From an uncultured Gallionellaceae bacterium (GTDB taxonomy: Bacteria > Pseudomonadota > Gammaproteobacteria > Burkholderiales > Gallionellaceae): 64,000 nucleotides of DNA. A model generated the notes under the pieces. The model was not told where the DNA came from. It saw only the letters and a list, made by a program, of their open reading frames with translations, and did not search any database. A program made the position numbers and the translations under genes. Shown piece by piece: positions 42,882 to 63,472 of the stretch. The stretch spans positions 1 to 64,000 of the forward strand of contig CAINCU010000005.1 of the NCBI GenBank assembly GCA_903847155.1, given 5' to 3'. The number at the start of each line of letters is the position of its first letter. Within the stretch, counting starts at the first letter, position 1.

Positions 42882-45215
42882 ATGAATCACGTCGGGAGAT
42901 CGGAATCACTTGGATTTGTTGTCGCTGTATGCGCGATGATATGCGTCGTTAATGCTGAAGCTCAGCCATTGGATGATGTTGGTCTGGAATATCAAAGAGA
43001 GGGTATCGTTGCCACCATCCACCTGTCGGCCCCGATACATTATCTGCGGCACGTCCCCGAGAAAAGCGGCAAGACGCTGGAGATTTACTATGAACGGGCG
43101 CAAGGGTTGATAGTTACTCCGGATAACAACAATAAGAAACCGGTGGGACAACCTGAGTTGTGGGTAGACAATGAAGTTCGTAACTCACCGCCTTCTGGTC
43201 TCATTCCAGCTTTTACAGTGACCACGCGCGACCAGCAAACCAAGCCGAAACTTGTGATCGAGTTTGAGCGCGAGGCGGAGTTCAGTGTGGCACCGGGCAA
43301 GGATAATCAAAGTTTGCGCATCACCATCAAGCCGGATCGGCGAACCGTGAGCAATGCCGCGTTGCCCTTGTTGCCCATCATTAAACCGGAAGTTGGCGCC
43401 GTACCTGCGGCTGCGCTGTCGGCGGATGAGGCGAATCTGGCGGAAAATAACAAACAGGCGCGCACACTGATGGTGCAAGGACGGGATGCGCTGGCTGCTG
43501 GAAAAAACAAAACGGCAATTGATACATTCAACCAGCTATTGCTGCTGCCTCCCAACGACTATTCGCAGGACGCGCAGGAGTGGGTGGGCGTGGCACGTCA
43601 ACGTGATGGGCAGCTAGATAAAGCCAAGATGGAATATGACCTGTATCTGAGGTTGTATGCGGAAGGTGCCGGAGTGCCCCGTGTGATGCAGCGTTTAACC
43701 GGGTTGTACAAACAGGACACGCCGCAAATCGCCGCAGTTGCAGGCGTCGTTGCATCTGGCGCAGTCGTACCCGGCGCAGTTGCATCCGGTACAGTTGCAT
43801 CTGGCGCAGTTCCATCCACGGAAAAGAAAAATGCCACCGCTGAGGAAAAGAAGAAGTCGGGGAGTTGGGTCAGTTATGGCGGTGTTTCCTCGCATTATTA
43901 TTTTAGTAAAACCAACATGGATTCGACTCAGGTCTATAACGGTGTGCCCACCACTTTGACGCAGTCGATGACGGATACGTCCATGCTTATAACGAGTGTG
44001 GATGCTTCAGAGCGTTATAGGAGCGAAGAGTATGACGGTCGCTTGGTGTTCAGCGATTCCAACACCAGAAATTTTATTTCAGGTCAACCAAGCAGTAATC
44101 GTTTGACTGCAGTCTATGGCGAAATAAAAGATCGAAAGCTTGATTATATGCTGCGCGCCGGGCGTCAATCGTCTTCGGGGGGCGGGGTGATGGGGCGCTT
44201 CGACGGCGTGTATGGCTCTGTTGCGAACTCGCCGCTTACGCACATCAATGTTGTGGCAGGGAAATTGGTGGACTATTCCCAAGGTAGCAAACCAACGTTC
44301 GGTGGTGCCAGTTACGACTTGGGGTCTTACTCACTGTACACGATCAATCAAAACGTGGAAGGCACAACGGATCGCCGGGGCGTGGGTGCGGAGTGGCGCT
44401 ATTTCGAAGGCAAAAAAACTATGTTTGCCACGGTGGATTACGATACCTATTTCAAGGCGTTGAATGTCGCCCAGTTCATGGGTACGGTAGGCATGCCCAA
44501 CGTTAGTCTGAATTTCATGCTGGATCATCGCAAGGCGCCATCGTTAAGTGTGCGCAATGCCTTGAATGGCGCGGGCACTTCTTCCGTAGATGCGTTGCTG
44601 CAATCCATGTCGGTCAGCGATTTGCGTGATCTGGCAATGGCGCGAACCGCCACTTCGAATATGGCGCAGCTCGGTGCGACCATGCAGTATCGGGAGAAAT
44701 GGCAGGTGGGTGGCGATTTGCGCTTGTCTAGTGTCACCGCGCTCAACGCCAGCGGACAGACCATAGATCAAACGACTGGCTTGCCGATTACGCAATGCAC
44801 TGGTTCAGTAACGAATCAGGGTTGTATTGATGCCCAGGCAGGACGCGGTGTGGAAAAAGCGGTTTCAGCGCTGGTGGTCGGCAGTGGACTCTACAAAGCA
44901 GGTGACATCTGGTCTGCGAATGCGTCCTTCACGATGGGCAGTTCGGTGAACGGGCAGTCTCTATATCTGTACAACCACATCCCGTACGGCAACACTTGGT
45001 CAGTGGATACATCGCTGCAACTGTCGCACCAGACTGACCAGGATGGCGGAGTGACATCGAGTGTGATGCCTATGGTGCGAGGAACTTATCGTATCAAGGA
45101 TCAGTTGTCGTTTGATGCGGATGGCGGTATCGCAAGTTCGAACTACGACGGTCCACAGTCCACTACCAAAACGAAGCGCTTCTTCTGTTCGGCAGGACTG
45201 CGCTGGGATTTCTAA
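42882..45215 (+). CDS. Outer-membrane beta-barrel protein of the porin-cytochrome cluster
   Basis: The 777-residue protein has a signal peptide (cleavage near VVNAEA) and an N-terminal beta-rich domain (residues about 25-150). A TPR-like helical pair follows (ARTLMVQGRDALAAGKNKTA; DAQEWVGVARQRDGQLDKAK), then a low-complexity VASGAV/PGAV linker (about 287-310). A long C-terminal barrel with alternating strands ends RFFCSAGLRWDF, with the terminal Phe of outer-membrane proteins. It would form the sheath for the cytochromes. The extra N-terminal TPR region is unlike plain MtrB/PioB barrels. Confidence 0.78.
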   Translation: MNHVGRSESLGFVVAVCAMICVVNAEAQPLDDVGLEYQREGIVATIHLSAPIHYLRHVPEKSGKTLEIYYERAQGLIVTPDNNNKKPVGQPELWVDNEVRNSPPSGLIPAFTVTTRDQQTKPKLVIEFEREAEFSVAPGKDNQSLRITIKPDRRTVSNAALPLLPIIKPEVGAVPAAALSADEANLAENNKQARTLMVQGRDALAAGKNKTAIDTFNQLLLLPPNDYSQDAQEWVGVARQRDGQLDKAKMEYDLYLRLYAEGAGVPRVMQRLTGLYKQDTPQIAAVAGVVASGAVVPGAVASGTVASGAVPSTEKKNATAEEKKKSGSWVSYGGVSSHYYFSKTNMDSTQVYNGVPTTLTQSMTDTSMLITSVDASERYRSEEYDGRLVFSDSNTRNFISGQPSSNRLTAVYGEIKDRKLDYMLRAGRQSSSGGGVMGRFDGVYGSVANSPLTHINVVAGKLVDYSQGSKPTFGGASYDLGSYSLYTINQNVEGTTDRRGVGAEWRYFEGKKTMFATVDYDTYFKALNVAQFMGTVGMPNVSLNFMLDHRKAPSLSVRNALNGAGTSSVDALLQSMSVSDLRDLAMARTATSNMAQLGATMQYREKWQVGGDLRLSSVTALNASGQTIDQTTGLPITQCTGSVTNQGCIDAQAGRGVEKAVSALVVGSGLYKAGDIWSANASFTMGSSVNGQSLYLYNHIPYGNTWSVDTSLQLSHQTDQDGGVTSSVMPMVRGTYRIKDQLSFDADGGIASSNYDGPQSTTKTKRFFCSAGLRWDF

Positions 45216-48913: not shown

Positions 48914-51457
48914 ATGAGTAAAAACGGGCGGGCGAATATGAAAAAAGCATTTTGGAAAACCGATTGGTTCACTGCTTTGCTGGTTACTTTGGTATTCATG
49001 TTCAGTGCCAACAGCGATCTGATCCAGAGTCTTGAACGCAAAGCCTATGACTGGGGTGTACTGGCTTCATCGCGCGTAGCCAGCGACAAGATCGTGGTCA
49101 TCGCCATTGATGATGAAAGCATTGCCAATCTGGGGCGTTGGCCGTGGCCCCGCGAGATTCAGGCAAAGATGTTGGACAAGCTGGCGGAAGGTCACGCCAA
49201 AGTCGTCGGCAACACCGTATTTTTCTTTGAACCGCAAGTAGATGCCGGTTTGAACTACATCCTCAATATCGCCAGCGCTCTTGAAAAAACCTCACTCAAA
49301 CAAACCAACCCTGCCGAATGGCAGGAGATGCAAGGCCTGATACAGGAAGCCTTGCAGCATCTGGACAATGATCAGAAACTTGCCGAGAGCATGTCCAAGG
49401 TCAATAACGTGCTGCTTGGTATGTATTTCGAACTGGGCGAGCCGCAGGGTAAACCAGACGCGGCGCTGCCGGACTATGTTCTAAAAAATAATCTAGTGAA
49501 TGTTAAAGGTGGCGACAGGGCAACTGCGCCGATTCCTGCGCTTGGTGCGCTGGTGCCTATTCAGGTATTGGGGCAGCAAGCAATAGCGATGGGCCATATC
49601 AACGCAACGCCTGATGTGGATGGCGGCATACGCACCGAGCCATTGGTTATAAGTTACTACGATCAATACTATCCGTCCTTATCGCTGATGATTGCGGCAA
49701 AGAGTTTAAATCTTGAACCGAAAGATATTCAAGTTACATTGGGCGAAGGTGTCAAGCTGGGCAATTTAAGTATCGCCACGGACGCAGCGCTGCGCATGCA
49801 TACTTATTTCTATGCGAATCGAGACGGTAAGCCAGCTTTCCAAGTGGATTCATTCTACGACGTGCTGACTGGAAAAATACCTGCCGACAAATACAAGGAC
49901 AAAATCGTCTTGATCGGAGCGACAGCTGCTGGTGTGGGGGCTGCCCAAGTGACTCCGATTTCAGCGACGACACCACCCGTGCTAACGTTGGCGCATTCGG
50001 TTTCCAGTATTTTGAAGCAGGATTTTTTTGTTGCACCTAGTTGGGGGCTGTGGGCGGAGATTGCCGTGTTCCTGCTGGTCTCGTTGTATCTGATTCTATT
50101 GCTTCCGCGTTTAAGTGCGGGGCTGGGTGCGGCAGTTACCGGTGGCCTGTTTGTCACGCTGCTGGTTGTCCATTTTGTGCTGATGACGACGCAGGCGATG
50201 TGGCTACAGTTGATGTTGCCGATAGCATTGCTGCTGGTGGGGCATTTACTGTTGACCACCAAGCGTTTCCTGCTGACTGAGAAAGGCAAGGAGAAATCCG
50301 ACGCCGACTCTGCCGAAAGCAACCGCATGCTGGGTTTGGCGTTTCAGGGGCAGGGGCAGTTGGATATTGCGTTCGACAAATTCCGTAAAGTGCCGCTGGA
50401 CGATAGCCTGATGGATGTGTTGTATAACCTCGGTCTGGATTTTGAACGCAAGCGCCAGTTCAACAAAGCTGAGTCGGTATTCAAATATATGGCCGATCAC
50501 AATCCGAAGTTCCGCGATTTGGAGGCGCGCACGGCGCAATCCAAGGCGATGTCGGAAACTGTTATTCTCGGCGGCAGTTCCGGTCGCAGCAACGACAGTA
50601 CGATGAAGCTGAATCAAGCCGGGTTGTCCAAGCCGATGCTGGGTCGTTATCAGATCGAAAAGGAATTGGGCAAGGGTGCGATGGGCGTGGTGTATTTAGG
50701 CAAGGATCCGAAGATCGGTCGTATTGTTGCGATCAAAACCATGGCGCTGTCGCAGGAGTTCGAGGCTGACGAGTTGGAAGATGTAAAAGCCCGATTCTTC
50801 CGCGAAGCCGAGACGGCGGGACGGCTGAACCATCCCAACATTGTCACCATGTACGATGCAGGCGAGGAACATGATCTGGCCTACATCGCGATGGAATTTC
50901 TCAAGGGCAAGGATTTGGTGATGTACGCCAAACAACCCAATCTATTACCGCTGCCCAAGGTGTTGAGCATCATCGCGCGCGTGGCAGATGCACTGAGCTA
51001 TGCGCATAGTCTGAACGTGGTGCATCGCGACATCAAACCTGCCAATATTATGTACGACTTGGAAACTGATACAGTGAAAGTCACCGACTTTGGTATTGCC
51101 CGCATCACCGATTCGTCCAAAACCAAAACCGGTATGGTGCTTGGTACGCCTTCTTTTATGTCGCCGGAGCAGTTGGCAGGCACCAAGATCGAAGGACACT
51201 CCGATTTGTTCTCGCTGGGCGTGAGTCTGTATCAATTGGTGTGTGGTAAGCTGCCGTTCGAGGGTGATTCCATGGCGCAATTGATGTTTCGCATCGCCAA
51301 TGAACCACATACCGATATCTTGAGTATCAATCCGGACGTGCCGCCATGCGTGGTTGCCATCATCAATAAAGCGTTGGCGAAGAAGGTGCAGGATCGCTAT
51401 GAGAATGGCGCTGCAATGGCGGACGCGATTCGTCAATGCGCGGCTGGGCTACAGTAA
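48914..51457 (+). CDS. CHASE2-domain Ser/Thr protein kinase
   Basis: The 847-residue protein has, in order, an N-terminal membrane helix, a periplasmic CHASE2 sensor (residues about 40-370, with IVVIAIDDESIANLGRWPWP), three helices (about 380-455), a TPR-like pair (about 480-535) and a C-terminal eukaryotic-type kinase. The kinase shows GKGAMGVVYLG, VAIKTM, VHRDIKPANIMYD, DFGIAR and GTPSFMSPEQLAG. The linker contains SETVILGG (Thr549). It is first in a co-directional run with a PP2C phosphatase and an FHA protein. An internal ATG at 48938 (MKKAFWK) is an alternative start. Confidence 0.92.
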   Translation: MSKNGRANMKKAFWKTDWFTALLVTLVFMFSANSDLIQSLERKAYDWGVLASSRVASDKIVVIAIDDESIANLGRWPWPREIQAKMLDKLAEGHAKVVGNTVFFFEPQVDAGLNYILNIASALEKTSLKQTNPAEWQEMQGLIQEALQHLDNDQKLAESMSKVNNVLLGMYFELGEPQGKPDAALPDYVLKNNLVNVKGGDRATAPIPALGALVPIQVLGQQAIAMGHINATPDVDGGIRTEPLVISYYDQYYPSLSLMIAAKSLNLEPKDIQVTLGEGVKLGNLSIATDAALRMHTYFYANRDGKPAFQVDSFYDVLTGKIPADKYKDKIVLIGATAAGVGAAQVTPISATTPPVLTLAHSVSSILKQDFFVAPSWGLWAEIAVFLLVSLYLILLLPRLSAGLGAAVTGGLFVTLLVVHFVLMTTQAMWLQLMLPIALLLVGHLLLTTKRFLLTEKGKEKSDADSAESNRMLGLAFQGQGQLDIAFDKFRKVPLDDSLMDVLYNLGLDFERKRQFNKAESVFKYMADHNPKFRDLEARTAQSKAMSETVILGGSSGRSNDSTMKLNQAGLSKPMLGRYQIEKELGKGAMGVVYLGKDPKIGRIVAIKTMALSQEFEADELEDVKARFFREAETAGRLNHPNIVTMYDAGEEHDLAYIAMEFLKGKDLVMYAKQPNLLPLPKVLSIIARVADALSYAHSLNVVHRDIKPANIMYDLETDTVKVTDFGIARITDSSKTKTGMVLGTPSFMSPEQLAGTKIEGHSDLFSLGVSLYQLVCGKLPFEGDSMAQLMFRIANEPHTDILSINPDVPPCVVAIINKALAKKVQDRYENGAAMADAIRQCAAGLQ

Positions 51458-51480
51458 ACTACCAACAGCGAGGGCAAATT

Positions 51481-52308
51481 GTGAACGTTAAAGATGCGTT
51501 GGAGATAGTCAGTCAAACCAATCCTGGCATGGTGCGCTCCCACAATGAGGATAGCGTGACCTATGATGCTGTATGCGGGTTGGTCGTATTGGCGGATGGT
51601 ATGGGCGGATACAATGCGGGCGAAGTCGCAAGCGGGATTGCAGTGTCAGTTTTGTCCAGCGAAATTAGGCACAGTCTGGAAGAAGTAAGGCCGGAGGAAA
51701 AAGAAACCGCTTCTGGGGAAGAGGTGGGTGTTATTTTATTGCGCGAAAATGTGAAGAAAGCCAATCTTTCCATTTTTAACGCCGCTCAGAGTCAGCCGCA
51801 GTATGCAGGGATGGGCACCACTATCGTCACTGCGCTTTTTTATGATAATCGCGTTGTAGTAGCGCATGTGGGTGACTCACGTATGTACCGTTTGCGCGGC
51901 GAAGTGTTTGAAACCATAACGCGTGACCATTCGTTGTTGCAGGAGCAGATCGATAGCGGAGTCATCAGCAAAGAGATGGCGCGGCTTTCCAAGAACAAGA
52001 ATCTGGTGACTCGCGCTGTCGGAATTGAGGCGGATGTTGTACCCGAGGTGCATGTACATGATGTAGAAGTTGGCGACATATATTTGCTGTGTTCGGATGG
52101 ACTGAACGATATGGTCGAAGATGAAGACATCGGAGCTACAGTGCAGATGCTGCAGGGGAATCTGTCCCTTGCTGCCGTGCAATTGATTGAGCAGGCGAAC
52201 GACAAAGGTGGACGTGACAACATTTCCGTTATCTTGGTGAAGGTCAAAGGCGGTTATGCCGCACCACGAGACTGGTGGTCCAAGTTTAAGTTCTGGTTTA
52301 AGAATTGA
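51481..52308 (+). CDS. PP2C-family Ser/Thr phosphatase
   Basis: The 275-residue PPM phosphatase shows all main motifs: RSHNEDS, VVLADGMGGYNAGEVAS, GMGTTIVTALF, AHVGDSRMYRLRG, ITRDHS, LLCSDGLNDMV and GGRDNISVILV. It is expected to reverse the preceding kinase. GTG 51481 (VNVKDALEIV) is chosen because homologous PP2C proteins begin about there; an ATG at 51436 inside the kinase gene would add 15 residues. Confidence 0.9.
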   Translation: MNVKDALEIVSQTNPGMVRSHNEDSVTYDAVCGLVVLADGMGGYNAGEVASGIAVSVLSSEIRHSLEEVRPEEKETASGEEVGVILLRENVKKANLSIFNAAQSQPQYAGMGTTIVTALFYDNRVVVAHVGDSRMYRLRGEVFETITRDHSLLQEQIDSGVISKEMARLSKNKNLVTRAVGIEADVVPEVHVHDVEVGDIYLLCSDGLNDMVEDEDIGATVQMLQGNLSLAAVQLIEQANDKGGRDNISVILVKVKGGYAAPRDWWSKFKFWFKN

Positions 52309-52339
52309 TGAGGTTACAAGTTATTACGGGGAAATTGAG

Positions 52340-53116
52340 ATGCCGGCAAAATTGATACTTAGCATGGACGGAGTGGTGATCAAAGAATATCCACTTACCA
52401 AAGAACGCACGACCATAGGCCGCAAGCCGCATAACGATATTGCCATCGACAATCTTGCAATTAGCAGCGAACATGCTGCTGTAATTACTATTTTAAATGA
52501 CTCTTTTTTCGAGGATCTAGGCAGTACCAATGGGTCGTCTATAAACGGTGCTCCCACCCAAAAGCATTTTTTACAAAACAATGATGTCATCGAAATTGGC
52601 AAATACAAACTCAAATATTTGAACGACCAACCTACGCAAACAACATCGGCAGATTTTGAAAAGACGATGGTGCTGCGCGCACCGGTCAAAACATCGTCTC
52701 CTCACAAGGTTGAAGAAAGCCTCAATCGCGGCACTACGCAAGCAGAGGCGGGGGCGCTTGCCGCCAAGCAGGACTCAACCACACAATTCAACACGACTGC
52801 CGCTAAAGAGGATATCAAGCCAACCGTGTCGGCCACAGCGACAGGACAGACACAGCTTGCGGTTATTCAGATATTGAACGGGCCGAATTTGGGCAAGGAG
52901 TTGGAGCTCAGCAAGAATCTGACTACTCTGGGCAAGCCGGGCGTTCAAGTTGCGGTGTTGGCGCGCCGTCCGCACGGTTACTTTATTACTCACGTTGAAG
53001 GAGGCAGTTTCCCGCTGGTAAATGGTTCTTCGGTAGGCGAACAGCCGCATTTGTTAAATGACCATGACCTTATTGAGTTGGCCGGTGTCAAAATGGAGTT
53101 TTATTTCAAGGCCTGA
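52340..53116 (+). CDS. Double FHA-domain protein
   Basis: The 258-residue cytoplasmic protein has an N-terminal FHA domain with the phosphothreonine-binding residues (TTIGRKPHNDIAIDN, SSEHAAV, DLGSTNGSSING) and a more degenerate C-terminal FHA-like domain (LVNGSSVGEQPHLLNDHDLI). They are joined by a Thr/Ala-rich linker that contains EKTMVLRAP (Thr109). It probably reads phosphorylation made by the upstream kinase. GGGGAAATTGAG lies before the ATG at 52340. Confidence 0.88.
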   Translation: MPAKLILSMDGVVIKEYPLTKERTTIGRKPHNDIAIDNLAISSEHAAVITILNDSFFEDLGSTNGSSINGAPTQKHFLQNNDVIEIGKYKLKYLNDQPTQTTSADFEKTMVLRAPVKTSSPHKVEESLNRGTTQAEAGALAAKQDSTTQFNTTAAKEDIKPTVSATATGQTQLAVIQILNGPNLGKELELSKNLTTLGKPGVQVAVLARRPHGYFITHVEGGSFPLVNGSSVGEQPHLLNDHDLIELAGVKMEFYFKA

Positions 53117-53179
53117 CCCGAGATTCCTCAATTGATTTTTCAGATGTAAAAATGTTTCTGCTGAAAAAGAGGGCTGTAA

Positions 53180-55411
53180 ATGAAAAAGCACGCACTTCTT
53201 ATCGGTTTGGGTCTGTTAATAGCTTTGTTTTTTTTGGGCGATGCCGCGAAGTTCTATCAGCTCGGCTTTGTCCAATTTACTGATGCAAAATTGTACGACT
53301 ACCGTATGCGGCTGACCTTGCCGCATACGAACGATGAGCGCATAGTCATTCTCGACATTGATGAGAAAAGCCTTAAGCAAGAGGGTCGGTGGCCATGGGC
53401 GCGCGATAAGCTTGCTGCATTGATGGACGAACTGTTTGATCGTTACCATGTCGCAGTTGTAGGTTTCGACGTGGTCTTTGCAGAGAAAGATACCAGTTCC
53501 GGACTGAATGTGTTGCAGGACTTGGGACGCAAGCAATTCAAGGATATACCTCAGTTTCAATCCATATTGAGCCAGATCAAGCCGCATCTTGAATACGATG
53601 CCTTGTTTGCCAGTAAACTCAAGCAACGCAACGTAGTATTGGGATACTACTTCAGCAATAGTGAAGCCGGGGCGGCTAGTAGTATGTCTGGCTTACTGCC
53701 TGCACCAGTTTTTCCCCCCGGTTTTTTTAAGGGGCATCCGGTCAACTTCCTCAAGTGGGATAGTTATGGTGCCAATTTGCCAGAGTTGCAGGAAAGTGCT
53801 GCTTCGGCAGGTCATTTCAATCCGCAGGTCGATTTTGATGGTGTAGTCAGGCGTGTTCCTATGATCGTAGAACATGATGGTGCCTATTACGAGTCTTTAT
53901 CATTGGCTGTGGTGCGTACTGTATTGGATTTTTCCAAATTGGCTCCGGGATTTGCGGGTAGCCAGAGCAAAGATTACAGCGGACTGGAGTGGCTATCGCT
54001 GGTATCCGCACAAGGGGATTTGACAATACCTGTGGATAGGGAAGGTAGCGCGCTGATTCCATTTCGCGGTGGACGCGGCACATTCCGCTACATTTCTGTA
54101 ACAGATGTGTTGCATGAGAAATTACCGGTGACGGACTTGCAAAACAAGATTGTACTAATTGGGACATCCGCACCTGGCCTGATGGATATGCGCGCTACAC
54201 CTGTGGGCGAAGTGTATCCGGGGGTGGAGATACATGCCAACATGATCAGCGGCATTCTCAACCAAAACCTCAAACAAAATCCCCATTATTTGCTGGGCGC
54301 GAACGTGCTTCTTTTGCTGCTCATCGGAGTTGTGTTGAGCGTGATTTTGCCGTTGTTGAGTCCGATGCGCGGGATGCTGGTTACTCTGTGTGTATTGACT
54401 GGAGATGTCGTACTGAATATGTCGTTGTGGCAATACGGGAATATGGCACTGCCTCTGGCGGGCGGCATGCTGATGATATTAACGTTGTTCGCATTGAATA
54501 TGTCCTTCGGTTATTTCGTGGAGTCGCGCGACAAGCGAAAGATCACAGGTTTGTTCGGGCAGTATGTGCCGGGCGAAGTGGTCGAAGAAATGGCCAAGAA
54601 TCCTGAGAGCGTCTCAATGGAAGGCGATAGTCGCGAGATGACCATCTTATTCTCCGATGTGCGGGGATTCACCACCATCTCAGAGGGGCTTGAGTCCAAA
54701 GAGTTGTCTCTACTGATGAACGCATTCCTCACCCCGCTTTCGCGCATCATCTACAAGCAGCGTGGCACGATTGATAAATACATGGGTGACTGCATTATGG
54801 CGTTTTGGGGAGCACCTTTGCCTGACGAACGCCATGCATACCATGCAATTCTTGCGGGACTTGAAATGCAGCGCACCTTGGCTGAGTTGCAGCCGCAATT
54901 TAAAGAAAAGGGATGGCCAGAGATACATATCGGTGTGGGCATCAATACAGGAAGAGTCAGTGTGGGCAACATGGGTTCTGAAGTGCGCGTGGCATATACG
55001 GTGATGGGCGATGCGGTGAATCTTGCTTCGCGCTTGGAGGGAATTACCAAAGAATATGGTGCATTGGTACTGGTGGGCGAGGCGACCAAGCAAGCCGTTC
55101 CCGATTTTTTATACCGCGAAGTGGATATGGTTCGAGTAAAAGGCAAGGTGCAACCCGTGGCGATTTTCGAGCCGTTGGGATTAAACAGCGAAGTTGACAA
55201 GGATCAGCAGGAGGAAGCTAAACTGTTTCATCAAGCGTTGCGCTTGTATCGCAAGCAAGACTGGGATAAAGCCGAGCTTCAGTTGTTGAGCCTGCGCAAT
55301 ATGTCGCCGCAGTGCAAGTTGTATCAAGTGTATGCCGAACGTGTTGCCCACTACCGCAATGATCCGCCGGGCGACAATTGGGATGGTGTATTCATCTTCA
55401 AAACGAAGTGA
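53180..55411 (+). CDS. CHASE2-domain class III adenylate cyclase
   Basis: The 743-residue protein has an N-terminal helix, a CHASE2 domain (residues about 35-375, IVILDIDEKSLKQEGRWPWA), three helices (about 375-455) and a class III nucleotidyl cyclase domain (about 480-660) with metal-binding Asp in LFSDVRGFTTISE and GDCIMAFWGAP and with VMGDAVNLASRLEG. A TPR-like tail follows. It shares its sensor type with the kinase three genes upstream. Cyclic AMP is the likely product; cGMP cannot be excluded. Confidence 0.9.
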   Translation: MKKHALLIGLGLLIALFFLGDAAKFYQLGFVQFTDAKLYDYRMRLTLPHTNDERIVILDIDEKSLKQEGRWPWARDKLAALMDELFDRYHVAVVGFDVVFAEKDTSSGLNVLQDLGRKQFKDIPQFQSILSQIKPHLEYDALFASKLKQRNVVLGYYFSNSEAGAASSMSGLLPAPVFPPGFFKGHPVNFLKWDSYGANLPELQESAASAGHFNPQVDFDGVVRRVPMIVEHDGAYYESLSLAVVRTVLDFSKLAPGFAGSQSKDYSGLEWLSLVSAQGDLTIPVDREGSALIPFRGGRGTFRYISVTDVLHEKLPVTDLQNKIVLIGTSAPGLMDMRATPVGEVYPGVEIHANMISGILNQNLKQNPHYLLGANVLLLLLIGVVLSVILPLLSPMRGMLVTLCVLTGDVVLNMSLWQYGNMALPLAGGMLMILTLFALNMSFGYFVESRDKRKITGLFGQYVPGEVVEEMAKNPESVSMEGDSREMTILFSDVRGFTTISEGLESKELSLLMNAFLTPLSRIIYKQRGTIDKYMGDCIMAFWGAPLPDERHAYHAILAGLEMQRTLAELQPQFKEKGWPEIHIGVGINTGRVSVGNMGSEVRVAYTVMGDAVNLASRLEGITKEYGALVLVGEATKQAVPDFLYREVDMVRVKGKVQPVAIFEPLGLNSEVDKDQQEEAKLFHQALRLYRKQDWDKAELQLLSLRNMSPQCKLYQVYAERVAHYRNDPPGDNWDGVFIFKTK

Positions 55412-55421
55412 GTTAACGGCG

Positions 55422-56186
55422 ATGAAACTTCGGGTGCTTGGTTGTAGCGGTGGGATAGGCGGGAATTGCCGTACGACTTCGCTATTGCTGGATCATGACG
55501 TTCTGATTGATGCCGGTACCGGATTGGGTGATCTGAGCTTGGCAGAGATGAGCTTGATCGACCATATCTTCATTACACATTCCCATCTGGATCATATTGC
55601 GTGCCTTCCCTTGCTGGTGGATAGCGTAGGTTTGATGCGAGATAAACCGTTGCTCATCCATGCCACAGCGGAGACACTGGCTATATTGCAGCAACATATT
55701 TTCAACTGGGAGATTTGGCCGGATTTTGCCGAGATACCCAATCTGTATCAGCCGGTAATGCGCTATGAAGAGATCAAATTAGGAGAGACAGTGGAGTTGG
55801 GTAGGCGAAAACTGACACCATTGCCGGTCAATCACGTCGTTCCCGCAGTTGGGTTTTGGATTGATAGTGGTACGGCGAGCCTGGTGTTCAGTGGTGATAC
55901 CACGACGTGCGATGCATTTTGGCAAGAGGTCAATCGAATTCAAGACCTGAGATACTTGATTGTGGAAACGGCTTTTTCTGATGCCGATAAAGCTTTGGCT
56001 ATCTTGTCCAAGCATTTGTGTCCCAGTTTACTTTTCGAAGAGTTATGCAAGCTTCAATTACATCCGGAGATATTCATCACGCATCTGAAACCGGGAGAGG
56101 CAGAGGTGACGATGAAAGAGATCAATGAGCTCGTGCATGGCTTTGATCCCGTAATTCTACAAAACGGACAAGAATTTGATTTTTGA
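55422..56186 (+). CDS. Metallo-beta-lactamase-fold protein, class II cyclic-nucleotide phosphodiesterase-like
   Basis: The 254-residue protein has the metal motif HSHLDH in FITHSHLDHIACLPLLVDS, further ligands in GDTTTCDAFW and a C-terminal ITHLKPGE. The HSHLDH context resembles class II cyclic-nucleotide phosphodiesterases (yeast Pde1 type). It starts 10 bp after the adenylate cyclase, so it may hydrolyse that enzyme's product. RNase Z-like or other hydrolase activity is an alternative. Confidence 0.72.
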   Translation: MKLRVLGCSGGIGGNCRTTSLLLDHDVLIDAGTGLGDLSLAEMSLIDHIFITHSHLDHIACLPLLVDSVGLMRDKPLLIHATAETLAILQQHIFNWEIWPDFAEIPNLYQPVMRYEEIKLGETVELGRRKLTPLPVNHVVPAVGFWIDSGTASLVFSGDTTTCDAFWQEVNRIQDLRYLIVETAFSDADKALAILSKHLCPSLLFEELCKLQLHPEIFITHLKPGEAEVTMKEINELVHGFDPVILQNGQEFDF

Positions 56187-56374
56187 TCAAGTAACTTGGA
56201 CGACAAGTTGCCGAATACAATAACAAATAGAGAAATACTGCAATTTATTGTGTTGCCAAAGAAGATGCTGAAGGAACATTTTCACATCGATTTTTAGCAA
56301 ACAGGTTACGAGAAAATAGAAAACAGCCTATGGTCGATCTCCAAGGCACAACAATGGCAAGGTAGGGAGAAGCA

Positions 56375-58774
56375 ATGAATAGTGCGGTGCAAGGCAATGC
56401 TAGCGAAATGGGGTTACGGTTGGAGTTCACCAAGAACCTCAATCAGGTCACCAACAAGATCCATGCAACCAGCAATATCGATGAGATTATGCTGGATGTT
56501 AGCAAGGACATCTGTGCACTTTTTAATGCTGAACGCCTGACGATTTATGTATTGGGTGAAGACAAGGCTTCGTTAGTTTCCAAAGTCAAGACCGGACTGA
56601 ATTCATTTAAAGACCTGAAATTGCCGATCGCCGAGCAAAGTATTGCCGGCTATGCTGCCTTTCGAAAAAAACTACTCAATCTCAAAGACGTGTACGACGA
56701 GCAGGAATTGGCCTTGTACAGCCCAACGCTGCGTTTCTTGCAGGATGTTGACAAACGTACTGGCTACCGTACCAAACAAATGTTGGTCGCGCCCATTGTT
56801 GAAGAAAATGGCGAATTGGTCGGGGTGATTCAGGTCATCAACAACAAAGCCGGCATACCGTTCCCGGCCATGGTGGAAGAGGGAGTGCGCGAATTGACGC
56901 AGACTCTGTCTGTTGCGCTCCGCCAGCGTCAACAGCAGAGCGGAGCAGTCAAAACAAAATACGATTATCTAGTATCTGATGCGGTGATATCCGCTGCCGA
57001 ATTTGAATTGGCCACGCGAACTGCTCGGCGCAAAGGGGTGGATATAGAGGATGTGCTGCTTGACGAATTTCAGGTTAAGCCAGACGCTTTAGGCAAGGCG
57101 CTCGCTGCTTTCTTCGGTGTTGCATATGAGCCGCATAAAACAGACCGCATAAAACCGGCTGAATTGTTGCGCAACCTCAAGCGCGAATACGTCGAAAGCA
57201 GCCATTGGGTACCGATTGACGACACGCCAGAAGGCGTAGTGATATTGACCACCGACCCAGAGCGAATTCAGGCTTCGCGGGTGGTAAATAACATATTTCC
57301 CAAAAACAAACTTGTTTACAAAGTTTGTACGCATCGCGAATTCAAAGCCACGCTCGACTTGTTTTATAGCGGCGGCGGCAGTAGCGGCGCTGGAGACTTC
57401 AGCGGCAACATGGCCGACATGGAAGGTTCGGTGGATGACTTGCTCACTTCGTTGGGAGGCGATGATGACGAGGAGTTGGGAGCCAGCAGTCAAGACGATG
57501 TCAGCGCTGCGGCGGACAATGAGTTAGTTAAGCTGGTAAATAAAATCATCGTGGATGCCTACAAGATGGGTGCATCTGATATTCACATCGAACCGGGACC
57601 GGGCAAAGCCAAAACGCAGATTCGCGTTCGCAAAGATGGCTCACTGATGAATTACATCGAAATCCCGTCTACCTATCGGAATGCACTGGTGACACGTCTC
57701 AAAATCATGTGTGACCTGGATATTTCCGAGAAGCGCAAGCCGCAGGACGGCAAAATAAAATTCAAAAAATACGGTCCGCTGGACATCGAACTGCGCGTGG
57801 CGACCATTCCTTCTCAGGGAGGCGTGGAAGACGTGGTGATGCGTATTCTGGCTTCTGGGGATCCGATTCCGCTTGATAACATGGGATTCTCTGCGCGCAA
57901 CCTTGAACTGATAAAAAAGACCGTATCCAAGCCATATGGCCTGTTCTTTGTTTGCGGCCCGACTGGTTCCGGTAAAACCACCACGCTGCACTCAATCTTG
58001 AAGCACATCAACACACCGGACACAAAAATATGGACAGCGGAAGACCCGGTGGAAATTACGCAGAAAGGACTGCGTCAGGTGCAAATCAATAAGAAGGCCG
58101 GGTTGGATTTCGCCACTATCATGCGAGCTTTCCTGCGTGCCGACCCGGATGTGATTATGGTCGGTGAAATGCGCGACAAGGAAACCGTGTCCATCGGTAT
58201 CGAAGCTTCACTCACGGGTCACTTAGTATTCGCCACCTTGCACACCAACAGCGCACCGGAATCCATCAACCGCTTGCTGGACATGGGTATGGATCCGTTC
58301 AACTTTGCCGATGCGCTGTTGGGTATTCTCGCGCAACGTTTGGGTAAACGCTTGTGCAAGGATTGCAAGAAAGCGCATATCGCCTCACAGGAAGAGATCA
58401 AATCATTGCTTACTGAATATGCGCTTGAATTAATGACGACGGAAACCTGGAAGAAAGATGCGAATGCTGCATACAAAGCGCTTTATGCCGATTGGGTAAG
58501 GTTATTCGGCGACGATAAAGGGCAAATTACGCTTTACGAAAAAGTCGGCTGCGACAAATGTTCTGGCACGGGTTATCGCGGACGCGTTGGCTTGCACGAA
58601 TTGCTGATCGGCACCGACCCAATCAAGAAAGCCATTCAGGAGCATGCGCGTGTGGCCGAATTGTTTGCCATTGCTTTGGAAGAGGGAATGCGCACCTTGA
58701 AACAAGATGGCATTGAGAAAGTGTTGACTGGAGTCACCGACATCCATCAAGTTCGCGCGGTGTGCATCAAATAG
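56375..58774 (+). CDS. GAF-domain fused GspE/PilB-type secretion/pilus ATPase
   Basis: The 799-residue protein has an N-terminal GAF domain (residues about 20-190), a GspE N-terminal domain (about 200-330), an acidic/Gly linker (about 330-380) and a hexameric ATPase. The ATPase carries Walker A GPTGSGKTTT (near residue 530), the Asp box, Walker B (DPDVIMVGEMRD), the His box (LTGHLVFATLHTN) and a zinc-binding C4 (LCKDCKK ... CDKCSGTGYRG). Such ATPases drive type IV pilus extension or type II secretion. The GAF fusion is unusual and suggests control by a small ligand. It is followed 4 bp later by the GAF-HD-GYP gene. Confidence 0.9.
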   Translation: MNSAVQGNASEMGLRLEFTKNLNQVTNKIHATSNIDEIMLDVSKDICALFNAERLTIYVLGEDKASLVSKVKTGLNSFKDLKLPIAEQSIAGYAAFRKKLLNLKDVYDEQELALYSPTLRFLQDVDKRTGYRTKQMLVAPIVEENGELVGVIQVINNKAGIPFPAMVEEGVRELTQTLSVALRQRQQQSGAVKTKYDYLVSDAVISAAEFELATRTARRKGVDIEDVLLDEFQVKPDALGKALAAFFGVAYEPHKTDRIKPAELLRNLKREYVESSHWVPIDDTPEGVVILTTDPERIQASRVVNNIFPKNKLVYKVCTHREFKATLDLFYSGGGSSGAGDFSGNMADMEGSVDDLLTSLGGDDDEELGASSQDDVSAAADNELVKLVNKIIVDAYKMGASDIHIEPGPGKAKTQIRVRKDGSLMNYIEIPSTYRNALVTRLKIMCDLDISEKRKPQDGKIKFKKYGPLDIELRVATIPSQGGVEDVVMRILASGDPIPLDNMGFSARNLELIKKTVSKPYGLFFVCGPTGSGKTTTLHSILKHINTPDTKIWTAEDPVEITQKGLRQVQINKKAGLDFATIMRAFLRADPDVIMVGEMRDKETVSIGIEASLTGHLVFATLHTNSAPESINRLLDMGMDPFNFADALLGILAQRLGKRLCKDCKKAHIASQEEIKSLLTEYALELMTTETWKKDANAAYKALYADWVRLFGDDKGQITLYEKVGCDKCSGTGYRGRVGLHELLIGTDPIKKAIQEHARVAELFAIALEEGMRTLKQDGIEKVLTGVTDIHQVRAVCIK

Positions 58775-58778
58775 AAAA

Positions 58779-60404
58779 GTGGATACGACCGGGGATATGG
58801 AGCAAGAGCATGTACAGATCACCATGCTGGAAGGTCTGCTCAATCGCCTGAGCGATCTCAATGCTATCGGTGCTGCCCTGTCCAGCGAACGTGACATCAA
58901 TCGCTTGCTGGAAAATATCCTTAACGCTGCGCAAAAGATCACAAATGCCGATGCGGGTACGCTATATCTGGCGGATGACGGAAATCAACAGCTGATCTTT
59001 GAAATTCTTCATAACGACTCGCTCAATATTCGGATGGGCGGAACATCCGGTAAACCGATTCCGTTCTATCCGATCAATTTATACATGAATGGGCAGCCCA
59101 ATCATGCCATGGTGGTGAGCCATGCGGCATTGAGCGGAGAGACCGTCAATATTCCGGATGCGTATATCGCAGAGGGTTTCGATTTTTCCGGCACCAAGAA
59201 ATTTGATGCCAAGACAGGTTATCGTTCGTGCTCAATCCTTGCGGTTCCGATGCGAAATCATGAGAACGTAATCATTGGTGTGTTGCAGCTTATTAACGCA
59301 CTGGATCGACAAAGCCGGAGCGTGCTGCAATTTTCCAAGGATGACCAGCAATTGCTGGAATCGCTCGCCTCACAAGCCGCCATCGCGATCAGCAATCGTC
59401 GTCTGATTCAGCAAATGGAAGACTTATTTGAATCTTTAATCAGCCTCATTAACACTGCCATCGACGATAAATCACCCTATACAGGCGGGCATTGCGCACG
59501 CGTTCCGGTGCTAACCATGATGCTTGCAGAGGCGGCGAATCGCTCCAAGCAAGGTTCGCTGAGAAATTTCGAACTGACCGACAAAGATCGATACGAACTC
59601 AAGATCGCCGGGTTATTGCACGACTGCGGCAAGATCACCACGCCGGTGCATGTGGTAGACAAAGCTACCAAGCTGCAAACCATTTTCGACCGTATTCATT
59701 TGCTTGACACAAGATTGGAAGTGCTCAAGCGCGATGCCCGCATCGACATGCTTGAAGGCCGCGCGAGTGCCAATGAATACGAGGAGCGTATTCGCCAGTT
59801 CAACTCGGATCGCGAATTCTTATGGAAGTGCAATATGGGCTCCGAGAAAATGTCAGAAGGGGATATTGCCCGAGTGCAAACCATCGCCCAATATCAATGG
59901 CGTAATGCGCAAGGCGAGGCAGCGAATTTTCTGAATGCGGATGAGTTGGCGAATCTGACAATTCGTGCCGGCACCTTGACTGCAGAAGAGCGCCAGATCA
60001 TCAACCACCACATCGTGGTCACCATCAAGATGCTTGAATCACTGCCCTGGCCGAATCATCTCAAGCATGTTCCGGAATATGCAGGCGGCCATCATGAGCG
60101 CATGGACGGTAAGGGTTACCCCAAAGGATTGAAACGCGAGCAAATGACAGTGCAAGCAAGACTGATGGGCATCGCTGACATCTTCGAGGCACTGACTGCA
60201 AAAGACCGCCCTTACAAGGAAGGCAAGACGCTTACCGAGTCACTCGCCATTTTGGGGTATTTCAAGGAGAGCGGACACATCGACCCCGAACTGTTCGATG
60301 TATTCATCCGCGAAAAAGTCTATTTGGATTATGCCCGGCGCTTTCTCGCTCTGGAACAGATAGATGAGGTGGACGAAACCAAAATACCCGGCTATATCCC
60401 CTGA
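58779..60404 (+). CDS. GAF-HD-GYP domain protein, c-di-GMP phosphodiesterase-like
   Basis: The 541-residue protein has a GAF domain (residues about 20-200) and an HD-GYP domain with HCARVP, LLHDCGKITTP, NHHIV and HHERMDGKGYPKGL. HD-GYP proteins hydrolyse c-di-GMP. An insert of about 95 residues lies between the HD and GYP halves. The GTG at 58779 is used; an ATG at 58797 with GGGGAT close by is possible. It is the last gene of the signalling run. Confidence 0.9.
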   Translation: MDTTGDMEQEHVQITMLEGLLNRLSDLNAIGAALSSERDINRLLENILNAAQKITNADAGTLYLADDGNQQLIFEILHNDSLNIRMGGTSGKPIPFYPINLYMNGQPNHAMVVSHAALSGETVNIPDAYIAEGFDFSGTKKFDAKTGYRSCSILAVPMRNHENVIIGVLQLINALDRQSRSVLQFSKDDQQLLESLASQAAIAISNRRLIQQMEDLFESLISLINTAIDDKSPYTGGHCARVPVLTMMLAEAANRSKQGSLRNFELTDKDRYELKIAGLLHDCGKITTPVHVVDKATKLQTIFDRIHLLDTRLEVLKRDARIDMLEGRASANEYEERIRQFNSDREFLWKCNMGSEKMSEGDIARVQTIAQYQWRNAQGEAANFLNADELANLTIRAGTLTAEERQIINHHIVVTIKMLESLPWPNHLKHVPEYAGGHHERMDGKGYPKGLKREQMTVQARLMGIADIFEALTAKDRPYKEGKTLTESLAILGYFKESGHIDPELFDVFIREKVYLDYARRFLALEQIDEVDETKIPGYIP

Positions 60405-60583: not shown

Positions 60584-61108
60584 ATGAAACAAGTTCAACA
60601 AGGTTTTACGCTGATCGAGCTAATGATCGTTGTGGCGATTATCGGTATTCTGGCAGCTGTGGCGATCCCTGCTTACAGCAACTACACCAAGAAAGCCAAG
60701 TTCACTGAAGTGACTCAAGCCACTCAAGCTATGAAGTCAGCAGTTGAGGCATGCCAGGCGGATACAGGTGATTTGTCGAGTTGCCCCAACGGATCCAACG
60801 GCGTGCCGGTTGCAATTGGTTACGCTGGTGTTTCGCCTGCGCCTGGAACAGCTGCCCCAGTTACAACAGTATCACCCACCGCTACTGTGGCCGCATTGGG
60901 CAAGTATGTTGCTGACGTCGCTGTATATGTCCCCGCTTTTGTAGCAGGTACACCGCAAACATCAGTAGAAATTTTGGCCAGAGCAACGACTATTAATGGC
61001 ATGGCGGGTGAAACTTATGCACTGAGTGGCACCTACAGTTCAGTTGCCGGCTTCACTTGGACCACAGATACAAACTCCACCTGCTTTGCAGCAACCATTT
61101 GTAAGTAA
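60584..61108 (+). CDS. pilA: Type IV major pilin
   Basis: The 174-residue prepilin has a 7-residue leader cut before Phe ([19 protein letters not shown]), Glu5, the long hydrophobic N-terminal helix, and two Cys pairs ([11 protein letters not shown] and CFAATIC), the latter likely the C-terminal disulfide loop. AAGGAGCTAAAC precedes the ATG at 60584. It ends in a strong terminator, so it is probably transcribed alone. Confidence 0.94.
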
Positions 61109-61137
61109 CAGCTAGAAGAGTTGTGCATGAGTAGCAT

Positions 61138-61170
61138 GAAAGAAGCCCCCTTAGGGGCTTCTTTCGTTTT
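61138..61170 (+). terminator. Terminator of pilA
   Basis: A perfect 12-bp stem, GAAAGAAGCCCC / GGGGCTTCTTTC, with loop CTTA is followed by GTTTT. Confidence 0.92.
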
Positions 61171-61186
61171 GGGGTATTTCGAAAAA

Positions 61187-62848
61187 ATGATTATGCCGGT
61201 TACAAAGGAATTTCCCGTTTTCAGCAAGGCGATTTATGCGCTGCTGTTGCTGATCGCGGTCGCAGCCATTTATGGGCAATTCCTGTGGAACCCCATCGTG
61301 TTCGACGATCAACAGTTTTTTATGCTGGGTAATGACCAGCTGGCCCATTACCGGCACTTTTCTCCTTTTGAAATGCGCTGGCTGCCGATGGCGACCATCG
61401 CCTGGACGGCGCATGGAATCGGCCTGGAACTGATCTGGTTTCGTGTGGAGAATTTATTACTGCATGCGGCGACCGGCATTGCACTGTTTTTCTTTCTGCA
61501 CCGCTTGTTTGATTTGGCTCTGAAAAAAAATACGGGCGATCCGATTAGGTTGCCCCATGTTTGGACGGCATTTTTTGCTGCCCTGCTGTTTGTATGGCAT
61601 CCGGTTGCGGTATATGGCGCTGGCTATCTAGTCGAGCGCACTATTGTGATGGCCACCCTGTTCGGTATTTTGGCGCTATATTTCTATATGCGCGGTTTGA
61701 CCGAGCAGCGCCCGCGTTGGCTGTGGGGGAGCGTGGCTTTATATTATCTGGCGGTGTTTTCCAAAGAGCTTGTGGTGATGCTGCCGGCGGTGATGCTGGC
61801 GCTGACGATGCTGCTGGAGAAGCCTTCATCGGCGCTGTGGAAGCGCTTATGGGGAATTTATGCGGCCTGTGCGCTGATCGCGTTGTTTATGCTGCTGCAA
61901 AGAATTGGTTTGTTGGGGGCGGTCTATGAGATAACCGCACCTGATATGCTGGGACAAGGGAAGGTTGAACATGCCTATTTCTTGAGCATTCTGACCCAGT
62001 GTTTTTTGTTTTTCAAATACGGAGTGCTGTGGCTGCTGCCCAATCCGGCATGGACTTCGGTGGACATGCGCGAGCCGTTTGCCAATAGCAACCTTCCCCT
62101 TTACTTGCTGGCATTGTTTGCGTTCCTGCTTTACGGATTGCTGGCGCTGCGCTTGCTGTTCAAACGCGGCAAGCTCGGATTGCTCGGGTTTTCGCTACTG
62201 TTTCCGTGGTTGCTGTTCATGACGGAGTTTTCCACAGTACGCATACAAGAGTCATTCGTGTTGTACCGCAGCTATTTGTGGGCGGCTGGAGCATTTGCAT
62301 TACTGCCATTGATTGTGTGGAAATTCACGGCGCGTGGCGCGATGTTGATGCTCGCAGTCATTTCCATTTTTATGATTCCGCTCGCCATGGAACGATTGAG
62401 CACCTTTTCGCACACGTTTTTGTTGTGGAACGATGCAGAAAAACTGGTGCAAGGACGCTCGGATTTGCCAGGTGAGTTTAGGATTTATTACAACCGTGGG
62501 ACAGAGTACATAAAACTTGACCAGTATGACCTGGCAATTAGTGATATGAAACGATCCATCGAGCTATTACCAGACCAACCTCCCGCTTGGGGCAACCTTG
62601 GCTGGGCTTATATCAAGAAAGGTGAGATGGAGCAGGCAGTACTTGCATACAACATAGCCATACAACAAAATGATGACCGCAAGTACCCGCCTAACCCTAA
62701 ATATTATTTAGGTCGCGCCAGTGCATATGAAGTTCTAAAGAATTGGTCTGCAGCGAGTGCAGACTATAAAGTGGCATGCAAGATTGTCCATCGGGGATGT
62801 GATAAGACTAATTTACCTCTGCATGAGACTTCGTCCGATGGACATTAA
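61187..62848 (+). CDS. TMTC-like GT-C membrane protein with C-terminal TPR, possible pilin glycosyltransferase
   Basis: The 553-residue protein has about 11 membrane helices with the acidic first loop VFDDQQFFMLGN, the FVWHPVAVYGAGYLVERT motif and SKELVVMLPA, all like GT-C glycosyltransferases of the TMTC type. Three TPR units follow at the C-terminus (AISDMKRSIELLPDQPPAWG; WAYIKKGEMEQAVLAYNIAI). Its position directly after pilA suggests O-glycosylation of the pilin, as with TfpW/PglL-like enzymes. The start (ATG 61187 or 61193) has no clear ribosome site; longer frames pass through the terminator. Confidence 0.72.
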   Translation: MIMPVTKEFPVFSKAIYALLLLIAVAAIYGQFLWNPIVFDDQQFFMLGNDQLAHYRHFSPFEMRWLPMATIAWTAHGIGLELIWFRVENLLLHAATGIALFFFLHRLFDLALKKNTGDPIRLPHVWTAFFAALLFVWHPVAVYGAGYLVERTIVMATLFGILALYFYMRGLTEQRPRWLWGSVALYYLAVFSKELVVMLPAVMLALTMLLEKPSSALWKRLWGIYAACALIALFMLLQRIGLLGAVYEITAPDMLGQGKVEHAYFLSILTQCFLFFKYGVLWLLPNPAWTSVDMREPFANSNLPLYLLALFAFLLYGLLALRLLFKRGKLGLLGFSLLFPWLLFMTEFSTVRIQESFVLYRSYLWAAGAFALLPLIVWKFTARGAMLMLAVISIFMIPLAMERLSTFSHTFLLWNDAEKLVQGRSDLPGEFRIYYNRGTEYIKLDQYDLAISDMKRSIELLPDQPPAWGNLGWAYIKKGEMEQAVLAYNIAIQQNDDRKYPPNPKYYLGRASAYEVLKNWSAASADYKVACKIVHRGCDKTNLPLHETSSDGH

Positions 62849-63023: not shown

Positions 63024-63138
63024 GTGACATCTGCGGGATGTAGGTTATCTTCCTACACAAGAATCGGAAAACATCTGATTTCCTTACATCCCCGCTTCTC
63101 CCAAAATGCAACTGTCGAAACAAGACATCTCTAATGTC
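63024..63138 (+). promoter_or_regulatory. Structured leader of flhDC
   Basis: Alternative pairings compete for the same bases. TGTAGG (63039-63044) can pair with CCTACA (63052-63057) around TTATCTT. GATGTA (63037-63042) can instead pair with TACATC (63085-63090), extended by GCGG/CCGC. GGAAA/TTTCC (63066-63083) forms an inner hairpin, and GACAT/ATGTC (63124-63138) sits just before the AGGAGG ribosome site. The 303-bp gap upstream of flhD holds no gene. Confidence 0.4.
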
Positions 63139-63151
63139 CAAGGAGGTTGCA

Positions 63152-63472
63152 ATGAAAGCCAATCAAATACACGAAGAAATCAAAGAAACCAATCTTTCCT
63201 ACATGATGTTGGCGCAACAAATGATTCGCGACGACAAAGTCAGCGCGATTTTTCGTTTGGGCGTGAGTGAGGAGTTGGCAGAGTTGATCGTCGGTTTATC
63301 GCCAGCGCAGTTACTTAAGATGGCAGGAGCAAATATGCTGTTGTGCCGTTTTCGCTTTGATGAGCGCCTGTTGCTGAGCATGATTACCGACTACAACAAG
63401 GACAGAATGATGTCGCAAACCCATGCCACTATCCTGATGGCAGGGCGGCAGGTTGAAGCACTTGCAGCCTAG
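63152..63472 (+). CDS. flhD: Flagellar transcriptional activator FlhD
   Basis: The 106-residue protein matches FlhD in its central part (LSYMMLAQQMIRDDKVSAIF and the FRLGVSEELAEL segment). With FlhC it forms the FlhD4C2 complex that activates class II flagellar promoters. AAGGAGGTTGCA sets the start at ATG 63152; an ATG 18 bases upstream lies before the ribosome site. Confidence 0.93.
   Translation: MKANQIHEEIKETNLSYMMLAQQMIRDDKVSAIFRLGVSEELAELIVGLSPAQLLKMAGANMLLCRFRFDERLLLSMITDYNKDRMMSQTHATILMAGRQVEALAA

Follow-up and report, generated by a model that had tools for sequence, protein, structure and literature searches.

The gene order in one stretch of a bacterial contig raises a question: to which signal does a type IV pilus motor respond when it carries a GAF domain and is encoded in one block with enzymes of protein phosphorylation, cyclic AMP (cAMP) and cyclic di-GMP (c-di-GMP)? 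The contig is CAINCU010000005.1 (GenBank assembly GCA_903847155.1, from an uncultured Gallionellaceae bacterium; 3.08 Mb in 76 contigs), and "the window" denotes the whole stretch analysed, i.e. its positions 1 to 64,000. The block spans positions 48914 to 60404. A preliminary description had listed seven co-directional genes there: a CHASE2 kinase, a PP2C phosphatase, an FHA protein, a CHASE2 cyclase, a phosphodiesterase-like hydrolase, a GAF-fused pilus-type ATPase and a GAF-HD-GYP protein. All seven lie on the + strand with intact open frames, and Pfam and family-profile searches found the domains as listed. The module is real and conserved across a wide range of relatives. No description of it turned up in the papers searched, which accords with the earlier proposal of a previously undescribed control system; most subscription journals and all bioRxiv preprints fell outside the scope of that search. 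Its ATPase is probably a pilus extension motor that the module controls in some way. The best single reading of the evidence is that cAMP gates this motor directly, a tentative reading to which we give a little less than an even chance.

Conservation of the block

Related loci were collected in one scan of genome contigs, which yielded at least 595 pattern matches and at least 583 relatives. The 80 loci kept lean to close relatives, because they are the best of those at least 583 related stretches. Most of their names are those of betaproteobacterial taxa. The nearest named locus among the matches listed (L040) comes from a Sideroxydans metagenome genome, and its ATPase is 96% identical to that of the window. 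The label of one metagenome contig in the set (L070) reads Bordetella parapertussis and may be wrong: its ATPase shares 70% identity with that of the window, and the other names among the best 80 are environmental.

Sixty-four of the 80 loci extend at least 8.5 kb 5′ of the ATPase. All five upstream genes were present in 44 of these and none of the five in three; counted singly, the kinase and the cyclase were each found in 49, the phosphatase and the FHA protein each in 56, and the hydrolase in 57. The HD-GYP gene follows the ATPase in 56 of 72 loci, and a pilA gene lies within 8 kb downstream in 41 of the 61 loci that reach far enough. The survey of neighbourhoods that the preliminary description had proposed as a check thus found conserved linkage in relatives. 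The block is a conserved, mostly betaproteobacterial signalling-and-motor module, perhaps a single operon, often with pilA after it. Median intergenic gaps across it are 4, 18, 61, 9, 110 and 22 bases, and the distances among orthologues track those among the ATPases (Mantel r 0.64–0.84; 50–67 loci). The catalytic motifs of the kinase, phosphatase, cyclase, hydrolase, ATPase and HD-GYP protein are kept (51–80 aligned rows each). A scan for promoters and terminators was uninformative, with 12 promoter-like sites vs. 17.3 in shuffled sequences and 21 terminator-like sites vs. 16.1.

Gene order was also surveyed in 120 evenly drawn genomes of the order, at least 90% complete, with a separate E cut-off for each gene search. 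The N-terminal part of the ATPase was matched in 57 genomes, the FHA protein in 70, the cyclase in 57 and the hydrolase in 79; two of the 57 ATPase carriers are partial matches (G071 and G084, the latter with an internal stop). Of the carriers, 48 have the hydrolase directly 5′ of the ATPase, 43 have the FHA gene no more than 9 kb away and 32 have the cyclase gene no more than 4.5 kb away. Across the 120 genomes, 41 have cyclase and hydrolase as direct neighbours, and seven of these have no ATPase. The FHA and hydrolase genes are adjacent with no cyclase between them in 16 genomes, and the hydrolase and ATPase are kept with neither FHA nor cyclase close in seven; contig breaks may hide neighbours in these counts. 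Given its adjacency to each, the hydrolase is the hub that joins cyclase and motor. Co-presence with the ATPase was pronounced for the FHA protein, the cyclase and the hydrolase (Fisher p <1e-9 each), but the genomes are related and the counts are therefore not independent events.

Could the genes merely be inherited together, so that the kinase, FHA protein and cyclase act on transcription or on targets elsewhere and the motor is independent of all three? FHA-cyclase pairs do occur apart from the ATPase in five genomes (two lack the ATPase, and contig breaks may explain others), and Nitrosomonas loci retain only the hydrolase and ATPase. The hydrolase's position immediately before the ATPase in 48 of the 57 carriers, seven of them with no FHA or cyclase gene close by, and the small intergenic gaps argue the other way, and we regard mere co-inheritance as improbable.

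The motor ATPase

The ATPase (56375..58774, + strand; GAF-MshEN-PilB-like, with PF00437 at E 3.7e-113, PF05157 and PF01590) belongs to the type II/IV secretion-type family, scoring 378.4 bits against PF00437 (cut-off 24.9), and its Walker motifs GPTGSGKT and IMVGEMRD are present in 80/80 rows. It can be called neither canonical PilB nor TfpB; both identifications were rejected, as its 476.1 bits against TIGR02538 and 381.7 bits against NF053534 fall below the equivalog cut-offs of 675.65 and 850. It belongs to a distinct PilB-like subfamily.

Five other large ATPases of the PilB/GspE type are encoded in the same genome: two called MshE-like from their N-terminal motif (contigs C12 and C54), a GspE (C49) and a TfpB (C15), both over their own cut-offs, and an orphan (C76). 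No ATPase of this genome passes the canonical PilB cut-off. PilT/PilU-type ATPases are found on C19. No platform gene (PF00482) lies on the window's own contig, C5; such genes were found on C12, C35, C49 and C54, and the one on C35 is PilC-like but under all family cut-offs, with no pilB upstream. As a separate observation, the orphan PilB-like ATPase (positions 5299-8916 of L129, G000:C76:45000-59971) has neighbouring genes that, by eye, resemble response regulators, and no platform gene on its contig.

Does the motor serve a pilus at all? The preliminary description had allowed a control system for pili or for secretion. The ATPase is a member of the T2SSE family, and kinase/phosphatase/FHA triads occur with type VI secretion systems (T6SS; PMC3953482), so that it might instead power type II secretion or belong to a T6SS-linked phospho-circuit. 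VipB/TssC, the sole T6SS gene searched, gave 0 matches in the assembly (the same search matched 1 of 14 control genomes), in agreement with the earlier statement that T6SS genes are missing; this argues against a T6SS-linked triad in this genome. The genome has a separate GspE and GspF, both over cut-off, and this pair makes a secretion role unlikely. A pilA gene often follows the block, and canonical PilB is missing in about half of the carriers. A pilus-type motor is thus central to the system as proposed, and for its secretion half we see only the slightest chance.

In the 120-genome sample, canonical PilB passed its cut-off in 68 genomes and TfpB in 58. PilB and TfpB occur together in 20 of the 57 GAF-motor carriers; six others have PilB alone, 21 have TfpB alone and 10 have neither of the two; hence canonical PilB is missing over cut-off in 31, where the GAF motor may take its place as the extension motor. 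The 63 genomes without a GAF motor divide into 25 with PilB only, 17 with both, 21 with none and 0 with TfpB alone. None of the 58 TfpB genomes (0/58) lacks both canonical PilB and the GAF motor, a pattern suggesting that TfpB depends on a partner motor. Among Gammaproteobacteria, PilB has been reported in 15 of the 16 species in which TfpB was present (PMC8213720). For Sideroxydans ES-1 and Gallionella ES-2, PilMNOPQ, MSH genes, PilT and PilU have been reported, and the text of the pilin section in the excerpt of that paper names no PilB (PMC3770913).

The motor's GAF domain

What might the motor sense? Its GAF domain (about residues 35-183) has CyaB2 (1YKD) as its best match in both single-sequence and profile searches; PmGH and the GAFs of several phosphodiesterases come next. 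The profile, built from 61 relatives, matched 1YKD at 2.2e-33, then PmGH, PDE10A, PDE5 and PDE2A, and its 24 matches are for the most part GAFs from cyclic-nucleotide phosphodiesterases or from the CyaB2 cyclase. By sequence membership, then, the domain falls near the CyaB2/PDE GAFs, in the cyclic-nucleotide GAF family. Two control GAFs from the same genome (L121 and L124) did not list 1YKD up to an E of 1 in the structure-library search. The GAF of the block's HD-GYP protein also has 1YKD as its first match, but the adenine-contacting Arg is missing in 66/66 rows. (A search of the genome with PF01590 gave seven matches, one being that HD-GYP protein, and did not recover the GAF of the ATPase; of the other matches, L121, L122 and L124 were read.)

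In CyaB2, GAFb contacts cAMP through Arg291, Thr293, Ile308, Asp356 and Asn359 (PMC4411481, in excerpt). We counted the equivalent residues over 79 ungapped rows; L066 is gapped there, and L052, a split frame, was not aligned. R54, T56 and the Asp of VD..TG, which correspond to Arg291, Thr293 and Asp356, are each present in 79/79 rows. Furthermore, all 12 of the sampled genomes that have the motor but not the block's cyclase carry other class III cyclases; this fits cAMP as the messenger and does not discriminate.

Several results weigh against cAMP as the ligand. The position of Ile308 is Val in 71/79 rows, and that of Asn359 is Thr. The strongest concerns the NKFDE motif: N and F are each found in 79 of 79 rows, K in 66 and E in 68, and the Asp, four residues after F, in 0/79; an acidic pair stands one residue farther on. 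In PDE2 GAFb, cGMP binding was abolished by alanine at any one of the NKFDE positions (PMC11977230, in excerpt), and the motif holds in most, not all, characterised GAFs that bind cyclic nucleotide monophosphates (cNMP; PMC4411481, as excerpted). The predicted structure of the motor's GAF, a confident model, has a GAF fold (predicted local distance difference test score 90.8), and by structure alone it lies near nucleotide GAFs and near GAFs of other proteins; structure was rejected as proof of the ligand, as it does not discriminate. One of the control GAFs, L121, matches 5W10, a GAF solved with cAMP, at E 1.5e-4, behind NifA-type GAFs. Finally, loci that lack the cyclase, e.g. those of Nitrosomonas, conserve the pocket just as well. 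Joint loss of pocket and cyclase, tried as a test of their coupling, was not seen, and this test gives no support to cAMP because the pocket is conserved either way.

These data give weight to another explanation, in which the ATPase is the module's extension ATPase, its GAF binds a different ligand (cGMP or a small molecule) or only aids hexamer formation, and the cyclase works through other cAMP readers. Pocket conservation without a cyclase, the Asp absent from all 79 rows and the mixed structural neighbours favour it, as does the binding of cGMP by isolated CyaB2 GAFb (PMC4411481, excerpt). Opposed to it are the nature of most of the 24 profile matches and the presence in one gene block of a cyclase, a phosphodiesterase-like hydrolase and a cNMP-binding protein. 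We consider it unlikely, if a serious contender, and direct gating by cAMP is the reading pursued below.

The c-di-GMP components

MshEN domains that bind c-di-GMP contain two RLGxx...G...L...L..Q motifs 29 residues apart (PMC5013675, in excerpt). Direct control of the motor by c-di-GMP, bound at MshEN and removed by the HD-GYP protein, would accord with the MshEN domain that Pfam detects and with the gene directly 3′ of the ATPase. This gene (58779..60404, + strand; PF13487, PF01590) encodes a GAF-HD-GYP protein, a predicted c-di-GMP phosphodiesterase, and its motif HHE..DG.GYP is intact in 66/66 rows. The motor's MshEN, however, does not show the c-di-GMP motif: it scores 9/22 (7–12 across 80 rows), against 17/22 in both MshE-like ATPases encoded by this genome; GspE, TfpB and the C76 ATPase score 8, 7 and 10, respectively. 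With the motif lost, direct control by c-di-GMP was rejected, and we think it very improbable. Of the c-di-GMP signalling first proposed for the block, the intact HD-GYP protein stands, but for the messenger read by the motor the evidence points to cAMP rather than c-di-GMP, because its GAF is of the cyclic-nucleotide type and its MshEN is degenerate.

Cyclase, hydrolase and a second candidate reader

The cyclase (53180..55411, + strand; PF05226, PF00211) is a CHASE2 class III adenylate cyclase with class IIIb-like residues. The metal-binding Asp pair and the ATP-type Lys are present; the Lys of DKY[IM]GD occurs in 61/61 rows and the Thr of the YT.MGD type in at least 60/61. The Thr variant is typical of class IIIb. 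Its closest solved structures are a phytochrome-cyclase fusion, a CyaB (3R5G, the cyclase domain of the Pseudomonas protein) and other bacterial adenylate cyclases.

The hydrolase (55332..56186, + strand; conserved start probably near 55422) has a metallo-beta-lactamase fold and is a relative of class II cAMP phosphodiesterases. It scores 51.7 bits against PF02112 (cut-off 23.7), over part of the profile only. Its best solved match is yeast PDE1 (E 1.7e-5), with which it has a FN..IWPD stretch in common; the metal-binding HxHxDH and FN..IWPDF are conserved across rows. RNase Z models outscore PF02112 slightly in bits, yet remain far below their own cut-offs.

In many relatives the long gap between hydrolase and ATPase holds a gene whose product combines a cyclic-nucleotide-binding domain with a rhodanese domain. 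Twenty-nine of the 80 loci have this gene, a count that leaves out L067 (a short match elsewhere), and 26 of these 29 have a full-length cyclase row. Pfam detected both domains in nine of ten such proteins, the tenth (L062) being an open reading frame in another frame, and an alignment of 28 rows shows a conserved phosphate-binding cassette, FGEEAL.....RNAtV. For the protein of L044 the best solved relatives are cGMP- and cAMP-dependent kinases and their regulatory subunits (PKG/PKA type); given the PKG-type relatives, cGMP is also possible as its ligand. The gene is absent from the window, a further point against the cAMP reading.

Kinase, phosphatase and FHA protein

The kinase (48914..51457, + strand; PF05226 E 2.8e-53, PF00069 E 6.6e-55) is a CHASE2 membrane Ser/Thr protein kinase with VAIK, HRD, DFG and the activation loop TKTG intact (51 rows). 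The PknB/PASTA kinase model NF033483 matches its kinase part only, at 292.9 bits, below the cut-off of 450. Downstream, the Stp1-type PP2C Ser/Thr phosphatase (51436..52308, + strand; start codon uncertain) passes NF033484 with 240.2 bits (cut-off 230) and keeps GDSR and CSDGL in 62/62 rows. The FHA protein (52256..53116, + strand; the true start is probably close to 52340) carries a canonical first domain, whose fold is near FhaA, GarA and OdhI (VIA-align), and a degenerate second FHA-like domain (hhalign and predicted model). Against the T6SS TagH FHA model TIGR03354 it scores 38.8 bits, below the cut-off of 120.25.

In the FHA protein's otherwise variable linker lies a KTMVLR island (DFEKTMVLR) with invariant T and R. 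The kinase linker contains a conserved SETVILGG, from residue 547, and its SETVIL resembles KTMVLR. By analogy with PknB-GarA, the two are likely phospho-docking sites. The kinase and the cyclase have the CHASE2 domain in common (28% identity over 443 positions), and for this reason may read related signals.

Flanking genes

The preliminary description had pilA and flhDC following the block. Both are present here: a pilA-like type IV pilin gene (60584..61108, + strand; PF07963, TIGR02532) and, downstream of it, flhD (63134-63472), with an flhC-like frame, assigned by eye, that runs from 63485 past the end of the window. While pilA recurs in relatives, the flhDC linkage is local. In the set of 80, 56 loci extend at least 5.5 kb on the downstream side, and a single locus (L082) gave a downstream match to flhD; the only other match, in L114, is upstream and on the opposite strand. 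A conserved flhDC linkage was thus rejected. Two or three pilA-like genes lie downstream of the block in L040, L042, L063, L068 and L102, and the pilin may therefore be exchangeable.

Between pilA and flhD, directly 3′ of pilA, lies a gene for a 575-aa protein (61121-62848) with C-terminal TPR repeats and a hydrophobic N-terminal part; BLAST relatives of it are found downstream in several of the 80 loci. It could modify the pilin, e.g. by glycosylation. On the other side, sucC and sucD (by eye) are situated 5′ of the block, then terC and a universal stress gene. Farther upstream (38435-45215), two multihaem cytochrome genes (cytochrome c7/MtrC-like) are followed by a gene for a 777-aa protein without a Pfam match. 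This group, which lies shortly before sucCD and the pilus block, may encode an outer-membrane conduit for iron oxidation.

A proposed mechanism

How might these components work together? The two periplasmic CHASE2 sensors would read related envelope signals, one driving cAMP synthesis and the other Thr phosphorylation at the kinase linker (SETVIL) and the FHA protein (KTMVLR). Phosphorylation of Thr would switch FHA docking, to be reset by the PP2C phosphatase, and the hydrolase would remove cAMP. Bound to the GAF domain, cAMP would open or close the hexameric motor, which in turn would drive the shared, PilC-like platform of the type IV pilus, with PilT/PilU for retraction, replacing canonical PilB or working beside it. 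In parallel, the HD-GYP protein would lower c-di-GMP, and in relatives that keep the gene the cNMP-binding-rhodanese protein may be a second reader of cAMP.

A local cAMP circuit that gates the pilus motor, with kinase/FHA and HD-GYP inputs, has in our estimate close to an even chance of being correct; the gating by cAMP is what we infer. The more specific proposal, namely that cAMP acts directly through the extension motor's own GAF, in the same block as the cyclase, the phosphodiesterase and the kinase-phosphatase-FHA switch, and that the motor replaces canonical PilB in about half of its carriers, is more doubtful and is offered as a possibility. If true, it would mean post-translational control of pilus extension by cAMP, for which the papers searched hold no precedent. 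With a cyclic-nucleotide-type GAF motor beside its own cyclase, direct control of extension by cAMP becomes testable with one purified protein. Many lineages, iron oxidisers of the Sideroxydans/Gallionella group among them, have no canonical extension motor, and the GAF motor is a candidate to stand in for their missing PilB. The block also brings together Ser/Thr phosphorylation, cAMP and c-di-GMP.

Comparison with known systems

The kinase, PP2C phosphatase and FHA protein with its conserved Thr motif recall the PknB-GarA/OdhI switches and the T6SS PpkA-PppA-Fha system. They differ in the CHASE2 sensor, in the match to NF033483 in the kinase part only and in the lack of VipB; moreover, the Thr motif here comes after the FHA domain.

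As a PilB-type motor with a putative nucleotide-sensing N-terminal part, the ATPase resembles the MshE/MshEN extension ATPases. Those are controlled by c-di-GMP, whereas here the c-di-GMP motif is lost and a GAF precedes the MshEN. TfpB, the second extension motor of Acinetobacter baylyi, is likewise a non-canonical PilB relative that can share a genome with PilB (PMC8213720, in excerpt), but the window's ATPase is below the TfpB cut-off, and TfpB is a separate gene (C15) in this genome. Second-messenger control of a pilus extension ATPase is known from Xanthomonas PilB-PilZ-FimX, which, as the excerpt of PMC10333796 has it, works via adaptors and c-di-GMP, unlike the block described here.

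In the Pil-Chp/CyaB/Vfr system of Pseudomonas aeruginosa, a class III adenylate cyclase and pili are tied together by cAMP, as they would be here. There, cAMP acts via the transcription factor Vfr, and the excerpt consulted of a 2024 review of PilB has cAMP affecting pili through transcription, with no mention of GAF (PMC11656802); here, the motor itself has a cyclic-nucleotide-type GAF, and the cyclase is encoded in its block. The tandem-GAF adenylate cyclase CyaB2 of Anabaena offers the GAF family and the Arg/Thr/Asp adenine contacts as points of likeness. Its GAF regulates a cyclase, while the one described here, in which the equivalents of Ile308 and Asn359 differ, sits on a pilus-type motor.

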